From Laspinema palackyanum D2c (GTDB lineage Bacteria > Cyanobacteriota > Cyanobacteriia > Cyanobacteriales > Laspinemataceae): a stretch of DNA of 64,000 bases. A model generated the notes under the pieces. That model was given only the letters and a program-made list of their open reading frames with translations, ran no database searches and was not told the DNA's origin. The DNA is taken from contig NZ_JAMXFD010000004.1 in assembly GCF_025370875.1 (NCBI RefSeq), positions 1 to 64,000 on the forward strand. Direction: 5' to 3'. Position numbers and translations under genes: made by a program. This document shows positions 8,650 through 16,470 of the stretch, piece by piece (within the stretch, counting starts at the first letter, position 1; every line of letters starts with the position of its first letter).

Positions 8650-9417
8650 TTAATCAATTAAAATATCTTCTTTTACATCATCTTCATAATATTCCCATTC
8701 CACATCGGGCATATCATCAAAAGCTTGTTTGACGTAGCTTTCCCATAACTTTCTAATTTTAGCCAAATAAGGATCACCGAGTCTCAATCTCAAGCGATGG
8801 CGGATGGTGAAGGAATCCGTATGATACATGACAATATCAATGGGTGGTCCTACAGAAATATTAGATTTCATGGTAGAATCAATGGAGAGTAAGGCACATT
8901 TTGCCGCAGCTTCTAACGGGGTATTTGCTGTTAAGGTGCGGTCTAGGAGGGGTTTGCCATATTTGGTTTCTCCAATTTGGAGAAAGGGGGTTTCTTTGGT
9001 GGCGTGAATGAAATTTCCCTGACTGTAAATTAAATACAGATTGGGTTCTTCCCCCGAAATTTGACCGCCCAGTAATATACTGCATTTAAAATCGATGCGA
9101 TCGCGTTCTAGGAAAGGTCGGTCCTGTTCTTGAATCGCTCGGATTTTGTTGCCAATATAACGAGCCACTTCTGCCAAACTGGGAAGGGTGTGAAGATTGA
9201 CCTCTTCTTGATGTTTAATATCTTTCTCTAAGGCAGCGATCGCCCCTTGGGTGATGGAGAGATTTCCCGAGGTACATAACAAAATGGTTCGCTCTCCCGG
9301 TACGGAAAAATCAAACAATTTTTGATAGGTTGAAATATGATCAACTCCGGCATTGGTGCGCGAGTCAGCGGCGATCACTAAACCAAAACGGGTGAGGATA
9401 CCCAGGCAATATGTCAT
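8650..9417 (-). CDS. Anbu: proteasome-related Ntn-hydrolase peptidase (COG3484)
   Basis: Anbu is the bacterial ancestral beta-subunit homologue of HslV and the proteasome; it assembles into a helical or ring-like particle. After removal of the initiator Met, the 255-residue product begins with Thr (TYCLGILTRFGLVIAADSRT), the expected catalytic N-terminal nucleophile. The downstream GLVIAADSRTNAG and LLCTSGNLSITQ blocks are typical. It is encoded convergently to the ATP-grasp and alpha-E genes. The transglutaminase-like gene usually found in this cluster is not in the window. Native substrates are unknown for the family. Confidence 0.9.
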   Translation of the reverse strand: MTYCLGILTRFGLVIAADSRTNAGVDHISTYQKLFDFSVPGERTILLCTSGNLSITQGAIAALEKDIKHQEEVNLHTLPSLAEVARYIGNKIRAIQEQDRPFLERDRIDFKCSILLGGQISGEEPNLYLIYSQGNFIHATKETPFLQIGETKYGKPLLDRTLTANTPLEAAAKCALLSIDSTMKSNISVGPPIDIVMYHTDSFTIRHRLRLRLGDPYLAKIRKLWESYVKQAFDDMPDVEWEYYEDDVKEDILID

Positions 9418-9679: not shown

Positions 9680-11110
9680 CTACTCATAAATACTGCCATC
9701 GGGGAGGATTGCGCCATCGAGTTGCGCTTGCGTTTCTCCTTCCCCAAAGTTAGCGCCGATGAGGTTGGCGTTGGTGAGGTTGGCATGAGTGAGGTTAGCC
9801 GATTCTAGGTTGGCACCGGCGAGATTAGCACCGGCGAGGTTGGCTCCCATTAATTGGGTTTGCTGTAAGTTTGCCTGGGATAGGTTGGTTTCGATCAGGG
9901 TGGCGCTGTTGAGATTGAGCGCCCTTAAATCTAATCCACTCAAGTCTGATCCGCTGAGGTTTGCGCCACTGAGATAAACATTTCTAAACAGGGTATTGCG
10001 GAGGTTGATGCCGCGCAAGTCGGCACCGGCAAGATTGGCACCGTCTAAGTCGGCTTCATTCAGGTTGGCACCGCTGAGGTTGGCACCGGCGAGGTTAGCT
10101 TCCCGTAAGTCGGCACCGCGTAAGTCGGCTTGACTGAGGTTGGCTTCTTGGAGGTCCCCTCCGGCAAAATTGGCTTGGGTGAGGCTACAGCCGATGAGAA
10201 TGGCTCCTCGTAAGTCGATGTTGGCAGCGGGTTCGCTGCCGATCGCCGGGTTGGGATAGCCGGAATAGGCGATCGCTGCCTCTCCCCGGAGTGTTAGCGC
10301 TTGATTCGCTGGAAATGCCAGGGGTGAGCCCGTTTCAGGGTCTAGTTTCTGATAGGGATTTCCCCAAGTGGGTAAGGCGTTGGGTGCGGCGGCGCTGGTA
10401 TGGGAACCCGGCGATGCCTCAATGACGGGAAGGTTCGGATTCGGTTCGCTATAGGCGGCAGGGACACCCCAGGCATTCGGCACCATCGGCATTTGAGGAG
10501 GGACGGGGACGATTTCGCTGCCTTCTCGTCGGGGTTCGAGTTTCTCGATCGCCTCGCCGAGATGGGAAATCTGTTCCGAGAGTTGAGCAATCTCCTCGGG
10601 GAGGCGACTGCTGCCTGCGGTTGTCGCTTTTTCTGGCAAGTCCCCTTCCGTGGCGGTGAGGGTATCGCGCAATTCCTCGATGGGAGGTTCCAGATGCTTG
10701 CTAATGCGCGATAACGCCACATCCAATACCATTAACTGCTGTTCTAGGTTGAGGATGGGTGAGAGCAAACGTTCCATCTGCTCCTTCTCAGGTTTTTCCA
10801 GGAGGTTCTCATTCAGGTGGGAGATTTCTTCGCTGAGTTCCCCAACTCGATTGGCGATCGCCACTTGAAACTCATCTATACTCTGATCCACTTCCGTGAT
10901 GGCATTGCTGAGTCGTTGCTGCGTGATCAGGTGCAATCGGTGGCGATAGACTAAATTTAGCCATGCGGAGAGAAATAAGACGACTGCTGCATAACTGAGT
11001 CTTCCCAGAACCAATGCAGCAACCAAACCCGCAACTGATCCAGCCAGGGAAATATATTCAGCAATTTTAATCCAACCCTCGTTGTTTGGTTGCATGGAGT
11101 TTGGTTGCAT
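9680..11110 (-). CDS. Membrane-anchored coiled-coil protein with C-terminal pentapeptide repeats
   Basis: The product (about 476 residues) has two close hydrophobic segments near residues 21-55, a long Glu/Gln/Leu-rich coiled-coil region (about 65-195), a Pro-rich linker, and roughly 180 C-terminal residues of A(D/N)LxG pentapeptide repeats, which fold as a right-handed beta helix. I chose ATG 11110 rather than TTG 11182 because the earlier start lies inside the terminator hairpin at 11164-11193; ATG 11095 is also possible. A 15-bp tandem duplication (TTTGGTTGCATGGAG) covers the two candidate ATGs. It is the last gene of the minus-strand run that begins at 15178. Function is unknown; a membrane scaffold is a reasonable guess. 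Confidence 0.75.
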   Translation of the reverse strand: MQPNSMQPNNEGWIKIAEYISLAGSVAGLVAALVLGRLSYAAVVLFLSAWLNLVYRHRLHLITQQRLSNAITEVDQSIDEFQVAIANRVGELSEEISHLNENLLEKPEKEQMERLLSPILNLEQQLMVLDVALSRISKHLEPPIEELRDTLTATEGDLPEKATTAGSSRLPEEIAQLSEQISHLGEAIEKLEPRREGSEIVPVPPQMPMVPNAWGVPAAYSEPNPNLPVIEASPGSHTSAAAPNALPTWGNPYQKLDPETGSPLAFPANQALTLRGEAAIAYSGYPNPAIGSEPAANIDLRGAILIGCSLTQANFAGGDLQEANLSQADLRGADLREANLAGANLSGANLNEADLDGANLAGADLRGINLRNTLFRNVYLSGANLSGSDLSGLDLRALNLNSATLIETNLSQANLQQTQLMGANLAGANLAGANLESANLTHANLTNANLIGANFGEGETQAQLDGAILPDGSIYE

Positions 11111-11163
11111 GGAGCCTCGGTTCTCAACGTTTGATGAGGATTTACCCGTCTTAAATACAGAAA

Positions 11164-11193
11164 ACAAGGGACAATCAATCAATTGTCCCTTGT
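11164..11193 (-). terminator. Intrinsic terminator downstream of the 11215-12312 gene
   Basis: The perfect inverted repeat ACAAGGGACAAT / ATTGTCCCTTGT (11164-11175 and 11182-11193) has a 6-base loop. Read on the minus strand it is followed by a short T-rich stretch. It separates the coiled-coil gene from the pentapeptide gene and argues against a start at 11182. Confidence 0.7.
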
Positions 11194-11214
11194 TAAAATA
11201 ACACTAAAATTCAA

Positions 11215-12312
11215 TTATTTGCTTTTTGGCAGATTTTTCGCTTGTTCCACGGCAATTTCCCGCAAGGCTTGGAAGGAATTGGCATTGGATGTCCCTTCGA
11301 TCGCCTTGACTGCCAAATCTTGTACCTGTTTGAGGGCCGATTCCAGTTGTTTGGTGAGGGTTTTGATGCGTTCTTCTTGGTTGTTGATGCTCACTTCTAA
11401 TGCACTGATTTGCAGTTGATAGGAGCGTTGCAGTCCTTCTACTTCTTTGCTTCGCAGATCTGAGGCGATTTTGGCTTGATAGTTGCCGATATTTCGACCA
11501 CTGTCTTTGCCATTCTTGATGTTAGTTTCCAATTCTTTCGGATGTGCCTCGACTTTGGCTTTGGCTTCGGCATAGTATTTTTCCCGTTCGGCGATCGCAT
11601 TTTCCCGTTCAGTCCATTCTTGTTCCTGGGTTTGGCGGATTTCTGCCAGTTCTTGATACAAGCCTTTTTGGGTTTGCGCGTATTCTTCCTGAGCCAGATG
11701 GCGATCGCGTTCTAAACTATAGCGATATTCCTCTGCATCCCGCTGTTGCTGTTTCTGGCGAGTAGTATTGCGTTCTTTAATCTCACGTTGATGGGTTTCT
11801 TGTTCTTTCTCCCAGGTTTTCTTGAGAGTTTGGATTTGTTGCTCTAAGGTATCCTGGCGATCGGTGATTTCCCCTTGAAAGGTTTTAGCGCGCTCTTGAT
11901 AAGTTTGGACTAACCCTTCTAACGTCTCCTCGGAAACTTCCAAATCATGTAAATTTTGAAGGTCTTCCACCTCCTGATTCACCGATTTGTCCAGTTCATG
12001 AAGTTTAGCCGCTTCCCCAGTCAGTCGTTCGGACAAATCACTGACCGCACCCCCAAATCCGAATTGCAACAATTGCAGACTTTCAATGGTCTGATTAATT
12101 TTCTGTTGAGCCGTTGGTGTGGTATTCATAGGGGTTTTTACTTCGGGAGAATTGACTTCTTTAACCGCTGAAATGGTACTTTTGGCCGCTGCTTGTTTTT
12201 CTTTAGCGAGTTGCTTAACTTGAGCCTCTAGTCCTGAGTTTTCCTTTTCTAATTCCTCAAAAGCTTCCATGATTTCCGCTTTAGTGCTTTTAGAGGTAAT
12301 TTTTTTCGCCAT
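11215..12312 (-). CDS. Long coiled-coil protein, paralogue of the 12426-13424 product
   Basis: The 365-residue acidic, Glu/Gln/Lys-rich protein is almost entirely predicted coiled coil between about residues 75 and 335. It has no membrane segment and no recognised catalytic motif. It shares a layout with the next upstream gene: a short N-terminal tail, a region of the form QFGFGGAVSDLSERL..E.AKL.EL, a central helical rod containing WTERE, and a C-terminal block ..QLESALKQVQDLAVKA. The matching block of the neighbour ends AAMRQAQDLAMRA. The N-terminal part (EAFEELEKENSGLEAQVKQLAKEK) looks like a small leucine-zipper region. Function is unknown; tandem paralogues of this type could form a hetero-oligomeric filament or scaffold. 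Confidence 0.75.
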   Translation of the reverse strand: MAKKITSKSTKAEIMEAFEELEKENSGLEAQVKQLAKEKQAAAKSTISAVKEVNSPEVKTPMNTTPTAQQKINQTIESLQLLQFGFGGAVSDLSERLTGEAAKLHELDKSVNQEVEDLQNLHDLEVSEETLEGLVQTYQERAKTFQGEITDRQDTLEQQIQTLKKTWEKEQETHQREIKERNTTRQKQQQRDAEEYRYSLERDRHLAQEEYAQTQKGLYQELAEIRQTQEQEWTERENAIAEREKYYAEAKAKVEAHPKELETNIKNGKDSGRNIGNYQAKIASDLRSKEVEGLQRSYQLQISALEVSINNQEERIKTLTKQLESALKQVQDLAVKAIEGTSNANSFQALREIAVEQAKNLPKSK

Positions 12313-12425
12313 CAGAATTCTCCAAAAAATGTGCAGGGTTTAAATCTGTATTAGCCTGCGGAGGCAGGCTTTGTCCGTATAGCCCCACCCTTGAGGGTGC
12401 GGGGGTCAGGTTAACAAATTAACTA

Positions 12426-13424
12426 TTATTTAGAGCCAGAACTCATATTTGATGAGGTTTGAAAGGCTCGCATTGCTAAATCTTGAGCTTGTCGCATCGC
12501 CGCTTGTAGCTGGGCGTTAATATCAGCAATTTGTTGAGTTTGACGTTCAATATTGCTGTTGAGAGATTGCAGGGTTAAATCATACCCTTGCTTCGTGCCT
12601 TCCCACTCTTTCTCGAACAGGTCAGATTTGACCTTGGCTTCGCGTTTCACTTCAGCGATCGCCTCTTCTTTTGCCTTAATATAAGCTTGTTTCAATTCTT
12701 CCTCAAATCCAGCAATCTTCTCCTGATTGGCTGCAAATTCGGCTTGATGTTCCGTCAAATATTTCTCTCGTTCCGTCCAGTTCTTTTGTTTTTCCCGAGC
12801 AATTTCTTTCAACTCGCGTTCTTGTTGCCGCTTCCGTTCTTCATATTCATCAGTTTCTAATTCTTGAATCCGCAGCCGTTCATAGTCATAATCTGCCGCT
12901 TCCTGTTCTCGTTCTTTGGTGAGGGCTTCATCTTGCTCTTGCACCAAACTGTCAAATTCTTGTTGTTCTTTTTGCCATGCTTTACGCTTTTGCGCCTGGT
13001 CCGTTTCAATAGTTTCTTGTTGTAAAGCCGCCTGATGATCCAGCAGTGCTAACTTTTCTTGGTGTTCTTGGGTGAGAATGTGCAGCGCATCAGCAACCAC
13101 TCGAATTTGACGTAATTCTTCGAGGCGATCGGTTTGAATAACAATCGCCCGTTTGAGTTCATCCAGTTTAGCAGTTTCGGTACTCAGTTTCTCCGCCAGT
13201 TGGGTGACAATACTCCCAAAATCGAGTTGCAGATCCGCTAATCCTTTAACAATCGTATCAACGGTGTAAGTCGAGGCAACGGCGAGGAGTTCTTTATTTT
13301 TATCCTTTTCCGCTTCCTCCTCTTTCGTAGCAACTTTAGAGGCAGTTCCTTGGCGATTGGCTAGAAGTTGTTGAAATTGGGCTAAAATTTGAGATTTACT
13401 GTCTTTAACCGGGGTTTGGGACAT
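12426..13424 (-). CDS. Long coiled-coil protein, paralogue of the 11215-12312 product
   Basis: The 332-residue product is highly charged and nearly all helical rod (about residues 60-315). The start is ATG 13424 (MSQTPVKDSKS), which has a strong AGGAGG seven bases upstream; an in-frame start at 13478 lacks such a site. The N-terminal QILAQFQQLLANRQGTASK is followed by LADLQLDFGSIVTQLAEKL, which aligns by eye with the LLQFGFGGAVSDLSERL stretch of the downstream paralogue. The Ser-rich tail ends SSNMSSGSK. It belongs to the same minus-strand group of unknown genes. I do not recognise a named family. Confidence 0.75.
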   Translation of the reverse strand: MSQTPVKDSKSQILAQFQQLLANRQGTASKVATKEEEAEKDKNKELLAVASTYTVDTIVKGLADLQLDFGSIVTQLAEKLSTETAKLDELKRAIVIQTDRLEELRQIRVVADALHILTQEHQEKLALLDHQAALQQETIETDQAQKRKAWQKEQQEFDSLVQEQDEALTKEREQEAADYDYERLRIQELETDEYEERKRQQERELKEIAREKQKNWTEREKYLTEHQAEFAANQEKIAGFEEELKQAYIKAKEEAIAEVKREAKVKSDLFEKEWEGTKQGYDLTLQSLNSNIERQTQQIADINAQLQAAMRQAQDLAMRAFQTSSNMSSGSK

Positions 13425-13479
13425 GAATTTTCCTCCTATTTCTAATAGTTTAGATGCGAAAATGTTGACCATCATCACC

Positions 13480-13662
13480 CGGCGGGGGATAAATCCCCCG
13501 CCTCATAGCTAAAGTCGGTTAAAAACCGACTAAAAATATCATCCTATACTATAAGACTATAAGACTTTCAGTCGGTTTCAACCGACTTTAGCTGTTAGAC
13601 GGGGGTTTTAACCCCCGTCGGTTGTTGCTGTTAGGGTTTTAACCCCCGTCGGTTGTTTACCC
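13480..13662. repeat. Two-palindrome repeats (GTCGGTT..AACCGAC and GGCGGGGG..CCCCCGCC)
   Basis: Copies of the two-palindrome repeat fill the gap between the coiled-coil gene and the small gene at 13664. The same repeat type occurs at 3402-4170, 38282-38590 and 62826-63058. Confidence 0.8.
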
Positions 13663-13663
13663 T

Positions 13664-14038
13664 TTACTCTAGCGGGCGGTTGGAGAGAAGCTGGAGAATG
13701 GCATTACAGCGATCGCAACGGTTGCCTTGCCAGCAAAAACACTCATCCACCACCTGCAAAAGCATCGCTCTCATTTGGCGATTTTGCTTTAATAAGGCAG
13801 CATAATTCTGCTGAACCGAAGTAACCACAAGATGCAAATGTTGAAAATCTTCACTGAGGAGTTGTAAATCATTTAACGTATCGGTGCGAATCTCCTCAAT
13901 CGTAGTCAGATTTCCCTTCAACTGATTTTCCCAGACAGACTGGCGGGTGAGTTTGGCAATTTTTTTCATGAATTTATCTAAAACCCGGTGAAAGGAGAGA
14001 TGCTTCACGCATCTCTCCGTTGTTTTATCCGACTCCAT
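13664..14038 (-). CDS. Small unknown protein with C-terminal Cys cluster
   Basis: The product has 124 residues, or 101 if it starts at ATG 13969 (MKKIAKLTRQ). It is helical, with a likely coiled coil in the middle, and ends with four closely spaced Cys residues (CFCWQGNRCDRC), a possible zinc or redox site. In favour of the long form, its ATG overlaps the stop codon of the upstream gene as TAATG (14036-14040), which suggests translational coupling. Against it, a perfect 10-bp hairpin (GGAGAGATGC / GCATCTCTCC, 13994-14018) lies in this first part and looks like an inserted repeat. No family is recognised. Confidence 0.55.
   Translation of the reverse strand: MESDKTTERCVKHLSFHRVLDKFMKKIAKLTRQSVWENQLKGNLTTIEEIRTDTLNDLQLLSEDFQHLHLVVTSVQQNYAALLKQNRQMRAMLLQVVDECFCWQGNRCDRCNAILQLLSNRPLE
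13994..14018. repeat. Perfect 10-bp-stem hairpin at the start of the 13664-14038 gene
   Basis: GGAGAGATGC (13994-14003) and GCATCTCTCC (14009-14018) flank a 5-base loop. It could be an attenuator or terminator between coupled genes, or a mobile palindrome captured in the reading frame. Confidence 0.7.
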
Positions 14039-14724
14039 TAACCATTAGCAAGCGCAGGTTCCCGCATTACTTCATGAGAAACTGCCGCAGGCAATGCCAT
14101 ATCTCCCGAAGTTGGACCATCCAAATGTGCCGCCATCAAACAAGCAATTTCAGCCGGAGGCAAATTATCCAAACAAATCATTTCTCGGGTTCCTTCCAAG
14201 TCAATCATCCGACTCAGATTTTGGGGGTCAGACAAAACGATCGCCGCTTGTTCCACCATCTCCCAATCGGACCGTTCAATCCAGTCCCATTTTAGGCTAT
14301 AATAATTAATCGGTTTAATCACCCCATTCTCATCAGGCTTTTGTCCAGAATGCTTGATAAAATCTGGCACAAATACCCCTTCTGCGGGTTCAACTCCTCG
14401 CGCTTGAACTGAGGCAACTAACCGATTAAAATCACTGAGACTTCGGCCCTTAACATAAGTAACCATCACCACATCATGGGGCAATTCTCCCCCTTCAGCC
14501 ACAAACCAAATTTGTCCCCATAAGGTATTTTTGGTCTGCCCCAAGCTGCCAAAAAACTTGCTAAACTTGAGGATAGTCATCGCTAATTTTGACCCATATT
14601 CCTCATCTCCAATCGTCCACTTTCCTGCCTGACAATTGTTTTTAGCAGAAATGGGTAATTCGGGAACAACAATGGCATTTTCGGGCTTGGTTCCAAATAC
14701 GGAAATTGTTGCTTTCTTAGACAT
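14038..14724 (-). CDS. Unknown protein, about 228 residues, in XRE-linked cluster
   Basis: I chose ATG 14724 (MSKKATISVFG) because AGGAG lies eight bases upstream; in-frame starts at 14784 and 14814 have no clear site. The sequence looks like a beta-rich globular domain in the first 150 residues, with the blocks LWGQIWFVAEGG, VVMVTYVKGRSLSDFNRLV and YYSLKWDWIER, then a helical C-terminal part. There is no signal peptide or membrane segment and no catalytic motif I can name. It sits between two small unknown genes in the same direction, with TAATG coupling to the next. Phage- or element-related origin is possible but not shown. Confidence 0.65.
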   Translation of the reverse strand: MSKKATISVFGTKPENAIVVPELPISAKNNCQAGKWTIGDEEYGSKLAMTILKFSKFFGSLGQTKNTLWGQIWFVAEGGELPHDVVMVTYVKGRSLSDFNRLVASVQARGVEPAEGVFVPDFIKHSGQKPDENGVIKPINYYSLKWDWIERSDWEMVEQAAIVLSDPQNLSRMIDLEGTREMICLDNLPPAEIACLMAAHLDGPTSGDMALPAAVSHEVMREPALANG

Positions 14725-14818
14725 GGTTTCTACTCCTGTAGGGTTGTGTAAAACTGCTGAATTCTCTGTTTTATCTTTAGCCATTTTGAGTAACCTATCC
14801 CCCATGATTTCCACGGGA

Positions 14819-15178
14819 TTATCGAATCACTGGACGAGGGGTAACTGGGGCGGAATTTGGATATTTGTAACCCGGTTCTTCTCCGGGTCGGGACTCAGTT
14901 TTAGCCGCCTCCGGGTGGGGATATCGTTCTACCCAAGGGTTGCCATTGGTCCCTCGAACCGACTCCGAAGAGGAGATGCCTTGGGTACTTTGCAAAACCG
15001 CCAGCAGATTTTGTAACAGTTCGATGTGGGCTGGGGTAAAATGGATGGTGAACCCCGAACCATCTCGGGCATAACCCGGACAAATGAGGGAGGCGGCACC
15101 TTGGTCTTCATGTTTGGCAATATAAAGCCAGTCCCCGTCTTCGAGCTTATAGTGAGTATCAGTCCAGGTTTTGAGCAT
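14819..15178 (-). CDS. Unknown small protein, first gene of the minus-strand cluster
   Basis: The start is ATG 15178 (MLKTWTDTHYKLEDGDW), which has AGGAG about nine bases upstream; the frame extends to 15208 without a better site. The 119-residue product has a compact N-terminal domain (about 75 residues with WLYIAKHEDQGAASLICPGYARDGSGFTI-like strands, then a helix HIELLQNLLAVLQS) and a disordered, Pro/Glu-rich tail. It is the first gene after the divergent promoter region shared with the XRE regulator. Function is unknown. Confidence 0.6.
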   Translation of the reverse strand: MLKTWTDTHYKLEDGDWLYIAKHEDQGAASLICPGYARDGSGFTIHFTPAHIELLQNLLAVLQSTQGISSSESVRGTNGNPWVERYPHPEAAKTESRPGEEPGYKYPNSAPVTPRPVIR

Positions 15179-15379
15179 CGTTCCTCTCCTGTCTTGTTTG
15201 TGTGGCACCCTCCCTTATGGCGCTCTCGATTGGCCCAAACCCGTCTGGTACCCGACCCGAGCTTTTACTAGGTCTAGCGTCTCAGCCGGAAAAAGGTGGG
15301 ACTGCTACAGTGCCCCTAGCGCCTGCTTTGTTGATGTTTTGTTCAACTAAACCTAGTTTAACGCGGCTTGATTTTTTCG

Positions 15380-15420
15380 TCAACCTAAAAGTTGATTTTT
15401 TTTTCAAAGTCGCCTACAAT
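15380..15420 (+). promoter_or_regulatory. Promoter of the XRE/ImmA operon with overlapping inverted repeat
   Basis: TTGATT (15392-15397) and TACAAT (15415-15420) are separated by 17 bases, a good sigma-70-type pair, with transcription expected near 15427. The small inverted repeat TCAAC-N6-GTTGA (15380-15395) overlaps the -35 box and is a candidate operator for autoregulation by the XRE protein. Confidence 0.55.
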
Positions 15421-15445
15421 GCAGATGTAGTGGGAATTTAAAGAC

Positions 15446-15787
15446 GTGGAACAGAGTTTTGGTAAACTAATTCGTCAAGCACGCAAGGACAAGGGATATA
15501 GCCAACGGGAGCTTGCCAAGCTTCTGGATGTCGATTTCACCTACTTGTCCAAGCTGGAAAACGATCGCGCAGACTATGCACCTAAAGAGGAAGTGATTCG
15601 GTCTTTGGCGCGGAATCTGGATTTGGATGAGGAGGAGTCTATCGTCCTCGCCGGTCGTCTTCCGCAACGGTACGAGGATTTTCTCAAGCAAAATTATAAA
15701 GCGATGCCTGCACTGTTGCGGCGGATGCGAGAAAATCCTGATTTTGCAGAGAAGGTGTTTCAGCAGGTGGCAAGCGAGGGGGAATAA
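15446..15787 (+). CDS. XRE-family helix-turn-helix regulator
   Basis: The 113-residue protein has a Cro/CI-type HTH in its first 65 residues (FGKLIRQARKDKGYSQRELA, then DFTYLSKLEND). It is a DNA-binding regulator, probably a repressor. The start is GTG 15446. The ImmA/IrrE-type peptidase gene begins two bases after its stop, so the two are cotranscribed. In known XRE/ImmA pairs the peptidase cleaves the repressor to release its targets. The most likely targets are its own promoter and the divergent unknown operon 15178-9680. Confidence 0.9.
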   Translation: MEQSFGKLIRQARKDKGYSQRELAKLLDVDFTYLSKLENDRADYAPKEEVIRSLARNLDLDEEESIVLAGRLPQRYEDFLKQNYKAMPALLRRMRENPDFAEKVFQQVASEGE

Positions 15788-15789
15788 TC

Positions 15790-16470
15790 TTGAGTATTTT
15801 TAAGCCGTATCGCTATTATCGCAAAGAAGCGATTGAGTATCGGGCAAATAATGTACTCAGGCGAATGGCACAGCGAGGGGACCAATTTGCTCCTTGCTGG
15901 CCGTTTGACGTGACTTTGGTTGCGGATTTTTTTGACCTCGGGGTAATTTGGGAACGGATTCCACCGGATGAACAAGGGGCGATCGCGGCGAGGATTCTCC
16001 CCCTGCAACGCTGTATCGAGATTAATGAAGAGATTCTCGATAAACCCCAGGGATTCCTGGAATCCACCCTGGCGCATGAAATCGGCCATTGGGTGCTGCA
16101 TATTAATCATGAGGCGACGACGGAAACGGCCGATCGCCTGCTTACAGACCTCTCCCTAGCAACCGATGAACCCTTTGTCTGCCGGGGAAGTCGGGAAGTG
16201 AACAGTCCCCTGAATCATGCCTCGGTATTAGAGTCTATGGAGTGGCAGGCACAGTATTTTGCGGGTTGCCTGCTGATGCCGAGGCGGATTTTAGAAGAGA
16301 AACGCCAAGGACGGGATTTAACCTATTGGTCTCACTTATATGAAATGCGAGAAGAATTGGGGGTGAGTATCTCTAATTTGGTGAATCGCCTTCAAGATTT
16401 AGAGTGGATTTACTTGGATAAGAAAACTCGCAAGCGGGACATTTATCCAGGAAAGGCACTGGTTTCGTGA
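15790..16470 (+). CDS. ImmA/IrrE-family zinc metallo-endopeptidase
   Basis: The 226-residue product has the zinc motif HEIGHWVLH at about residues 97-105, in the context ESTLAHEIGHW. Members of this family cleave partner XRE repressors. The start is TTG 15790 with GAGGGGGA about eight bases upstream, located at the end of the XRE gene. An EWQAQYFAGCLLMPRR-type helix follows, typical of the family, where the Glu/Gln-rich helix supplies the third ligand region. It ends before a hairpin terminator at 16488. The pair is typical of mobile-element and stress control modules. Confidence 0.9.
   Translation: MSIFKPYRYYRKEAIEYRANNVLRRMAQRGDQFAPCWPFDVTLVADFFDLGVIWERIPPDEQGAIAARILPLQRCIEINEEILDKPQGFLESTLAHEIGHWVLHINHEATTETADRLLTDLSLATDEPFVCRGSREVNSPLNHASVLESMEWQAQYFAGCLLMPRRILEEKRQGRDLTYWSHLYEMREELGVSISNLVNRLQDLEWIYLDKKTRKRDIYPGKALVS

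Follow-up and report, generated by a model that had tools for sequence, protein, structure and literature searches.

The window analyzed here, a stretch of 64,000 nt (contig NZ_JAMXFD010000004.1 of Laspinema palackyanum D2c, positions 1 to 64,000), contains the gene for an XRE repressor next to the gene for an ImmA/IrrE-type protease, and these diverge from a row of five genes, A to E, followed by a sixth, F. Judging by gene order, this cluster is very probably the arh locus (arhR on one side, arhA-E on the other). In non-heterocystous filamentous cyanobacteria it probably serves as a damage-response module, where a switch similar to CapP/CapH or IrrE/DdrO would release a single-stranded DNA (ssDNA)-binding protein, B, and a pair of filament proteins, D and E. 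Loci and genomes are cited below by our own L and G numbers.

The identification as arh is based on the five co-directed genes A-E, which diverge from the XRE gene as in the available description of the published locus (PMC8400943). The same arrangement is found in Arthrospira sp. PCC 9108 (L103), with the gene order of the window and an insertion which interrupts the locus. Gene letters follow the order used in 2021; the 2015 papers run the opposite way. In Arthrospira/Limnospira PCC 8005, arhR (_10466) is described as an XRE gene on the opposite strand to arhA-E (_10467-_10471), which increase 8.4- to 29.9-fold under gamma rays and to which, in the text consulted, the authors could assign no function (PMC8400943). 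The product of _10468, in the position of B, is reported to increase 7.1- and 4.3-fold as protein (PMC4398503), and the set to stay elevated all through recovery (PMC4550399). A first-pass annotation of this DNA had proposed inducible control, and the published induction of the Arthrospira locus agrees with it (PMC8400943, PMC4398503). Two neighbours of _10468 are described as conserved in cyanobacteria, Nostoc among them, with about 48% likeness to Nostoc 7120 and a similarity to SMC (structural maintenance of chromosomes) proteins (PMC4398503, PMC4550399). The two loci differ after E: PCC 8005 is said to have there an induced PstS-like gene beyond the set, _10472 (PMC4398503), and Laspinema has F. 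The passages of the arh literature on PCC 8005 that were available mention no ImmA gene, operators, fold of B or ZicK/ZacK; relative to them the switch, the fold, the orthology of D and E and the link to Argonaute genes described below are new.

The locus is widely conserved. Relatives of B are found in 34 of 148 related genomes. The XRE and B genes face apart on one contig in 49 of the 58 named GTDB-genome loci found with B; the other nine (three additional B copies, and six loci at the end of a contig) do not have both genes on the contig and are excluded from the operator count. This is the conserved neighbourhood which the first-pass annotation had proposed to look for, and whose absence would have refuted it. 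Recorded hosts include Laspinema, Oscillatoria, Planktothrix, Planktothricoides, Arthrospira, Microcoleus, Tychonema, Kamptonema, Lyngbya, Okeania, Hydrocoleum and Trichodesmium. A profile search finds A in every XRE locus among L090-L147 (49 loci). Across the 67 loci found with B, at a coverage of at least 75%, C is present in 43, D in 44 and E in 41. D and E come next in most loci where the contig extends far enough; the exceptions are L102 and two loci of lineage f20 (L135 and L136), which have D-E elsewhere in the genome. The profile of E matches 58 of 386 cyanobacterial genomes, that of A 13 of 386. Its synteny across these genera is that of a core module.

Among the loci compared, F adjoins E in the nearest family alone, and one member of that family (L067) has no F. 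For this reason the conserved unit is XRE-ImmA with A-B-C-D-E, to which F has been added locally. Purifying selection acts on all eight genes (dN/dS 0-0.24 in three close comparisons of Laspinema type), and B is 100% identical to that of Laspinema palackyanum D2a.

The proteins of the switch are also well conserved. The XRE protein is 100% identical in L090-L094 and 99% in L063, with 47 invariant columns over 17 sequences, and the HEIGH motif of ImmA is invariant in the 17 sequences aligned. The best PADLOC model for ImmA is capP (2.6e-14). CapH-CapP is a DNA damage repressor-protease pair of CBASS (cyclic oligonucleotide-based antiphage signalling system) and other immune operons. Like the window, it has a helix-turn-helix (HTH) repressor and a zinc protease next to the operon they control, but similarity is low and the targets are different. 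IrrE/PprI-DdrO of Deinococcus also has a separate small repressor and an M78 protease, and the arh genes are radiation-induced according to published work, but the sequence match is limited to the HTH and no wide regulon is seen here. The PprI/IrrE and CapP proteases are described as activated by ssDNA, after which they destroy their repressors (PMC10904395, PMC13373217).

Three palindromes of the form GTTGA-N8-TCAAC are found between XRE and A (Table 1). Their weight rests on conservation, since matches within the window alone are not rare. Over 50 regions (the window and 49 others), which share kinship, there is a mean of 3.1 operators per region, compared with 0.028 in mononucleotide shuffles, and 49 of the 50 have two or more. 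In a promoter scan with loose boxes and no shuffle control, the -35 lies inside an operator for the XRE promoter in all 50 regions and for the A-E promoter in 49. The palindromes thus overlap candidate promoters of both divergent units, a feature of switches of the CapH-CapP/IrrE-DdrO type. All eight genomes of the genus have operator arrays (in G001, on a contig of unchecked context), and further operator pairs are present in Laspinema. Some of these recur in two or three genomes out of the eight (G003, G004 and G006 share one) and may belong to a wider regulon.

Operators are also found where the genes have been separated. In all five f20 genomes, a long distance separates D-E from XRE-ImmA-A-B-C, and two operators precede D; the same is true of the two f5 genomes, whose XRE-ImmA and A are elsewhere, so that unlinked D-E have two operators before D in 7 of 7 genomes. 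Eight loci have XRE directly against D-E, without A-B-C, and seven of them have at least one operator. On the other hand, none of eight Nostocaceae D-E loci without XRE has an operator at 9 or more of the 10 fixed bases, with a single match of 8 of 10; among these eight genomes only G435 has a relative of ImmA, on another contig and beside an Argonaute-sized gene. The pattern of two operators occurs in 27 of 386 genomes, by position at XRE and/or D-E loci in 23 and elsewhere in four; the reversed control pattern matches three. The operators before unlinked D-E, their absence from Nostocaceae loci without XRE and the positions of the genome-wide pattern are good sequence evidence that XRE acts on GTTGA-N8-TCAAC sites, with D-E as its usual targets.

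B had been included among the small unknowns of the first-pass annotation, a label which overlooks a protein with a predicted oligonucleotide/oligosaccharide-binding (OB) fold. The AlphaFold2 model, made from an alignment of 41 sequences, has a pLDDT (predicted local distance difference test) of 86. The first two VIA-align matches are T4 gp32 (1gpc), over 129 residues at 3.9 A with a Z of 7.6, and RB69 gp32 (Z 7.4); a Z of 7.6 is middling by the tool's own scale, and a fold which is missing from the VIA list is not thereby disfavoured. Foldseek finds 23 matches among predicted viral proteins at E <=0.001, the sole informative name being a DUF5895 protein, and relatives of B in viral contigs adjoin RusA-like, DnaB and UvrD genes. 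The core of B is thus predicted to be an OB fold resembling ssDNA-binding proteins, and ssDNA binding is likely on account of this fold and of the viral relatives near replication genes, both shared with T4 gp32 and bacterial single-stranded DNA-binding proteins (SSBs). Distant relatives of B (about 30-36%) are also found at 8 places in G036 and on cyanobacterial plasmids (L039-L041). In L138, L139, L140 and L144, B is split by an insertion of about 2.4-2.6 kb with a group II intron (Rfam Intron_gpII, 4 of 4); in L138-L140 the second part of B restarts at residue 37.

Of the two other small proteins, C has four cysteines (77, 79, 85 and 88) which are invariant in the 13 sequences aligned. The AlphaFold2 model of A is weak (pLDDT 63), so we have discarded it as evidence. 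No relatives of A were found in viral contigs.

D and E are tandem coiled-coil paralogues (29% identity, E 2e-37), as the first-pass annotation had proposed. Their heptad signal exceeds 300 of 300 shuffles, as does that of the globular XRE protein. In Nostocaceae, 7 of 8 loci have PhoU-SphS-SphR in this order beside D-E (all except L195; Pfam naming was done on L192). Published gene order in Nostoc 7120 has all4501-all4503 followed by alr4504-alr4505 (PMC7564538), and by this comparison the Nostocaceae D and E sit at the alr4504/alr4505 position beside phoU-sphS-sphR. The same tandem arrangement of coiled-coil paralogues is a point of likeness with ZicK/ZacK, which we take to be Alr4504/Alr4505 of Anabaena 7120. 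They differ in that the Nostocaceae loci have neither an adjacent XRE gene nor operators. By analogy, D and E likely form filaments, in agreement with the filament-type pair first suggested. They match phrog_29668 over their full length (7.3e-17 for D and 7.8e-11 for E). This match means that distant phage relatives of D/E exist, gp268 of phage G being a candidate; its relation to E is weak (26% over 55%, E 2e-4) and its gene context uninformative. No relatives of D or E were confirmed in viral contigs.

This orthology suggests another explanation, that the locus is an operon for cell shape or a trichome cytoskeleton, in which D/E act like ZicK/ZacK in Anabaena and the switch merely couples filament architecture to stress. 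The synteny with alr4504/alr4505 favours it, as does the description of ZicK and ZacK as strictly interdependent heteropolymers tied to trichome shape (PMC7766704). Nevertheless, it leaves both the SSB-like partner and the Argonaute-type sister targets unexplained. The Anabaena pair is also linked to stress, since the published data give a 20-fold rise of Alr4505 and 4.35-fold of Alr4504 under BMAA (beta-N-methylamino-L-alanine; PMC8147232), and, in two other conditions, 6.67- and 3.57-fold for Alr4505 together with 3.03- and 3.7-fold for RecA (PMC7354497). We consider this explanation quite unlikely.

Table 1. Genes and candidate operators of the Laspinema cluster (positions in the window)
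Feature	Position	Strand	Description
XRE repressor (arhR position)	15446..15787	+	113 aa; HTH_3 6.3e-13
ImmA/IrrE-type metalloprotease	15790..16470	+	226 aa; HEIGH motif; Peptidase_M78 3.5e-10
Operator O1	15391..15408	.	9/10 fixed bases of GTTGA-N8-TCAAC; holds likely -35 of XRE promoter
Operator O2	15367..15384	.	9/10 fixed bases; holds likely -35 TTGACG of A-E promoter (17 nt, then TAAACT)
Operator O3	15330..15347	.	10/10 fixed bases; just downstream of A-E -10
A (arhA position)	14819..15178	-	119 aa; start ATG 15178
B (arhB position)	14038..14724	-	228 aa; start 14724; SSB/gp32-like predicted OB fold
C (arhC position)	13664..13969	-	101 aa; start 13969; CxC-x5-CxxC tail
D (arhD position)	12426..13424	-	Coiled-coil protein; start 13424; alr4504 position in Nostocaceae
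E (arhE position)	11215..12312	-	Coiled-coil protein; start 12312; alr4505 position in Nostocaceae
F	9680..11110	-	Start ATG 11110; pentapeptide protein (PF00805 6.8e-47) with hydrophobic N-terminal stretch (KD19 2.24) and coiled-coil part; outside the core

Start sites in Table 1 were placed by comparison with homologues. Every gene named in the first-pass annotation is present: six on the minus strand and the XRE-ImmA pair on the plus strand, whose assignments were right, as was that of F. Its operon is borne out by a conserved gene set facing XRE-ImmA, but not by the TAATG coupling of C: a start at 14038 was rejected, as it lies 23 codons upstream of the start common to homologues. Its operator candidate, 15380-15420, takes in only part of the array of three palindromes. 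We find no support for a membrane-linked unit of six genes, as F alone has a clear membrane stretch and lies beside E only in the nearest family. We should also mention a palindromic repeat between C and D (13473-13628), MITE-like (miniature inverted-repeat transposable element), with dozens more copies in the genome (40 of 318 candidates scored). A proteasome-like protein (PF00227, 3.8e-07) adjoins the cluster at 8650-9417, a neighbour retained in several loci of the nearest family. Downstream of E in another locus (L139:11358-13832) there are twenty tRNA matches within about 2.5 kb.

Sister XRE-ImmA pairs (50-68% identical in XRE, 44-52% in ImmA) precede genes for a long Argonaute and a Cas4-like nuclease. 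Of the neighbours scanned, all 4 long ones match pAgo_II in PADLOC and all 3 nuclease ones match Aga_Cas4-like. The analysis covered ten such Argonaute-type loci, with six of like layout judged by size, position and start sequence. One is found within this genome (L275, G000:C1:514000-524500), where a second XRE-ImmA pair lies before the Cas4-like nuclease and the Argonaute. The N8 operator is present at two sister loci, in G341 and G380. Upstream of L269, L272, L277 and L278, GTTGA half-sites read by eye have an N9 spacing; the difference between N9 and N8 possibly insulates paralogous regulators. In L273, L274 and L276, a protein of 73-94 aa containing NPDQLCFSIGRPL is found ahead of the nuclease and Argonaute-sized genes; the L276 copy has no Pfam or PADLOC match.

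These sister loci raise the question of whether the cluster is a defence against phages or plasmids, the switch sensing invading DNA and the products trapping or blocking it. The N8 operator in G341 and G380 points in this direction, and relatives of B in viral contigs could reflect an arms race, since they are up to 69% identical to it and 6 of 8 are nested in the clade formed by host XRE-locus copies. Against this, PADLOC gives no credible match for A-F (the best, E 0.0035, is a coil-type match of F), the locus and its neighbours are kept across genera, Nostocaceae retain D-E without the switch, and the published trigger is gamma rays. Such a defence function seems to us unlikely.

The viral copies of B may also be read as the trace of an integrated mobile element, whose remnant would comprise ImmA, a repressor similar to CI and an ssDNA-binding protein of phage type. 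Pairs of the ImmR/ImmA type control integrative and conjugative elements and phages, and relatives of B occur on plasmids as well. Nevertheless, no family match to integrase or structural genes is found among the eight proteins, and purifying selection together with synteny across genera disfavours a remnant. The tree of B rather suggests capture from host to phage for L081, L082, L084-L086 and L088; it has a midpoint root, long branches which meet and several open forks, and the duplicates L044, L046 and L052 were left out. We consider a mobile remnant very unlikely.

Damage leading to ssDNA, activation of ImmA and loss of ArhR is the simplest reading of the HEIGH protease, the adjacent repressor, the operators, the PADLOC matches and the published induction by gamma rays. 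In such a damage-response module, ArhR (the XRE protein) bound to the three palindromes would cover the -35 boxes of both divergent promoters and keep arhR-immA and arhA-E low. DNA damage would produce ssDNA, which would activate the adjacent ImmA-type protease; active ImmA would cleave ArhR and both promoters would open. B would then coat the exposed DNA; as this would take away the ssDNA signal, B could also shut off the response. D and E would be a pair of ZicK/ZacK type forming mixed filaments, with A and the cysteine-tailed C as two small partners. Jointly, these products would keep damaged chromosomes protected, compacted or held while the cell recovers.

Several observations weigh against this interpretation, apart from the kinship of the operator regions, the loose promoter boxes and the middling VIA-align score already mentioned. 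ArhR binding and cleavage, ssDNA as the signal, ssDNA binding by B, and the formation and role of filaments are steps which we infer. The arh identity is set by gene order and published text and not by comparison with PCC 8005 sequences, and recA is reported to show no induction in Arthrospira (PMC4550399). As for the switch, a generic HTH model (HTH_VI, 9.8e-11) is the best PADLOC match of XRE and capH (1e-9) only the second, its match to DdrO is weak (E 0.18), and ImmA has no usable match to solved IrrE. In the window alone there are four one-mismatch operator matches where 2.04 are expected, and 10 of 100 shuffles reach four, which is not significant; the XRE-side promoter box of L103 is probably due to chance. 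The nine Argonaute rows do not form one clade in the best tree, with which a single clade is nevertheless compatible (p-AU 0.30).

The resemblance of B to known ssDNA-binding proteins is also incomplete. Foldseek against PDB gives mostly SSBs in its top rows, with a weak best E of 0.03, and a search of solved structures with the profile of B gives one meaningless row and no sequence match to solved SSBs. We take the zinc site of gp32 to be His-Cys3 and bacterial SSBs to have an acidic C-terminal tip ending in F. The zinc ligands are absent from B, which has one invariant cysteine (C31) and another nearly so (C184) in 41 aligned sequences. The tip of the window protein, REPALANG, is not acidic and has no terminal F, which is found in 12 of 41 relatives.

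Some genomes depart from the expected arrangement. In L102, D is gone, along with most of E. G133 (L292), a natural case of target loss, keeps XRE-ImmA with three operators and lacks A-E; G416 has XRE, a broken ImmA and no match to E. L207 has no operator and L200 only one. In L206, L209 and L211 (lineages f13 and f9) ImmA is not adjacent, so that these relatives have no HTH repressor beside an M78 protease with an intact HExxH motif as the window has, and no relative of ImmA is found at E 1e-20 in G092, G052 and G105. Since these lineages have XRE and D-E without a detected ImmA, this protease cannot be the sole route to relieving the repressor.

The damage-response module might be extended further. 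B on ssDNA would nucleate heteropolymers of D and E, giving an induced nucleoprotein scaffold which holds broken chromosomes, separate from LexA and unlike RecA; one family of ssDNA-sensing regulators would then serve repair and DNA immunity, kept apart by an operator spacing of 8 or 9 bp. We regard this extension as doubtful.

In summary, the arh genes, known since 2015 as the most striking among those which radiation induces in Arthrospira, have had no assigned function. Fold, orthology, operators and an adjacent protease give them a testable pathway, in which a repressor-protease switch would control an SSB-like protein and a probable filament pair. The pair of ZicK/ZacK type gains a regulatory context, possibly related to DNA, and Argonaute operons are tied to the same family of regulators.

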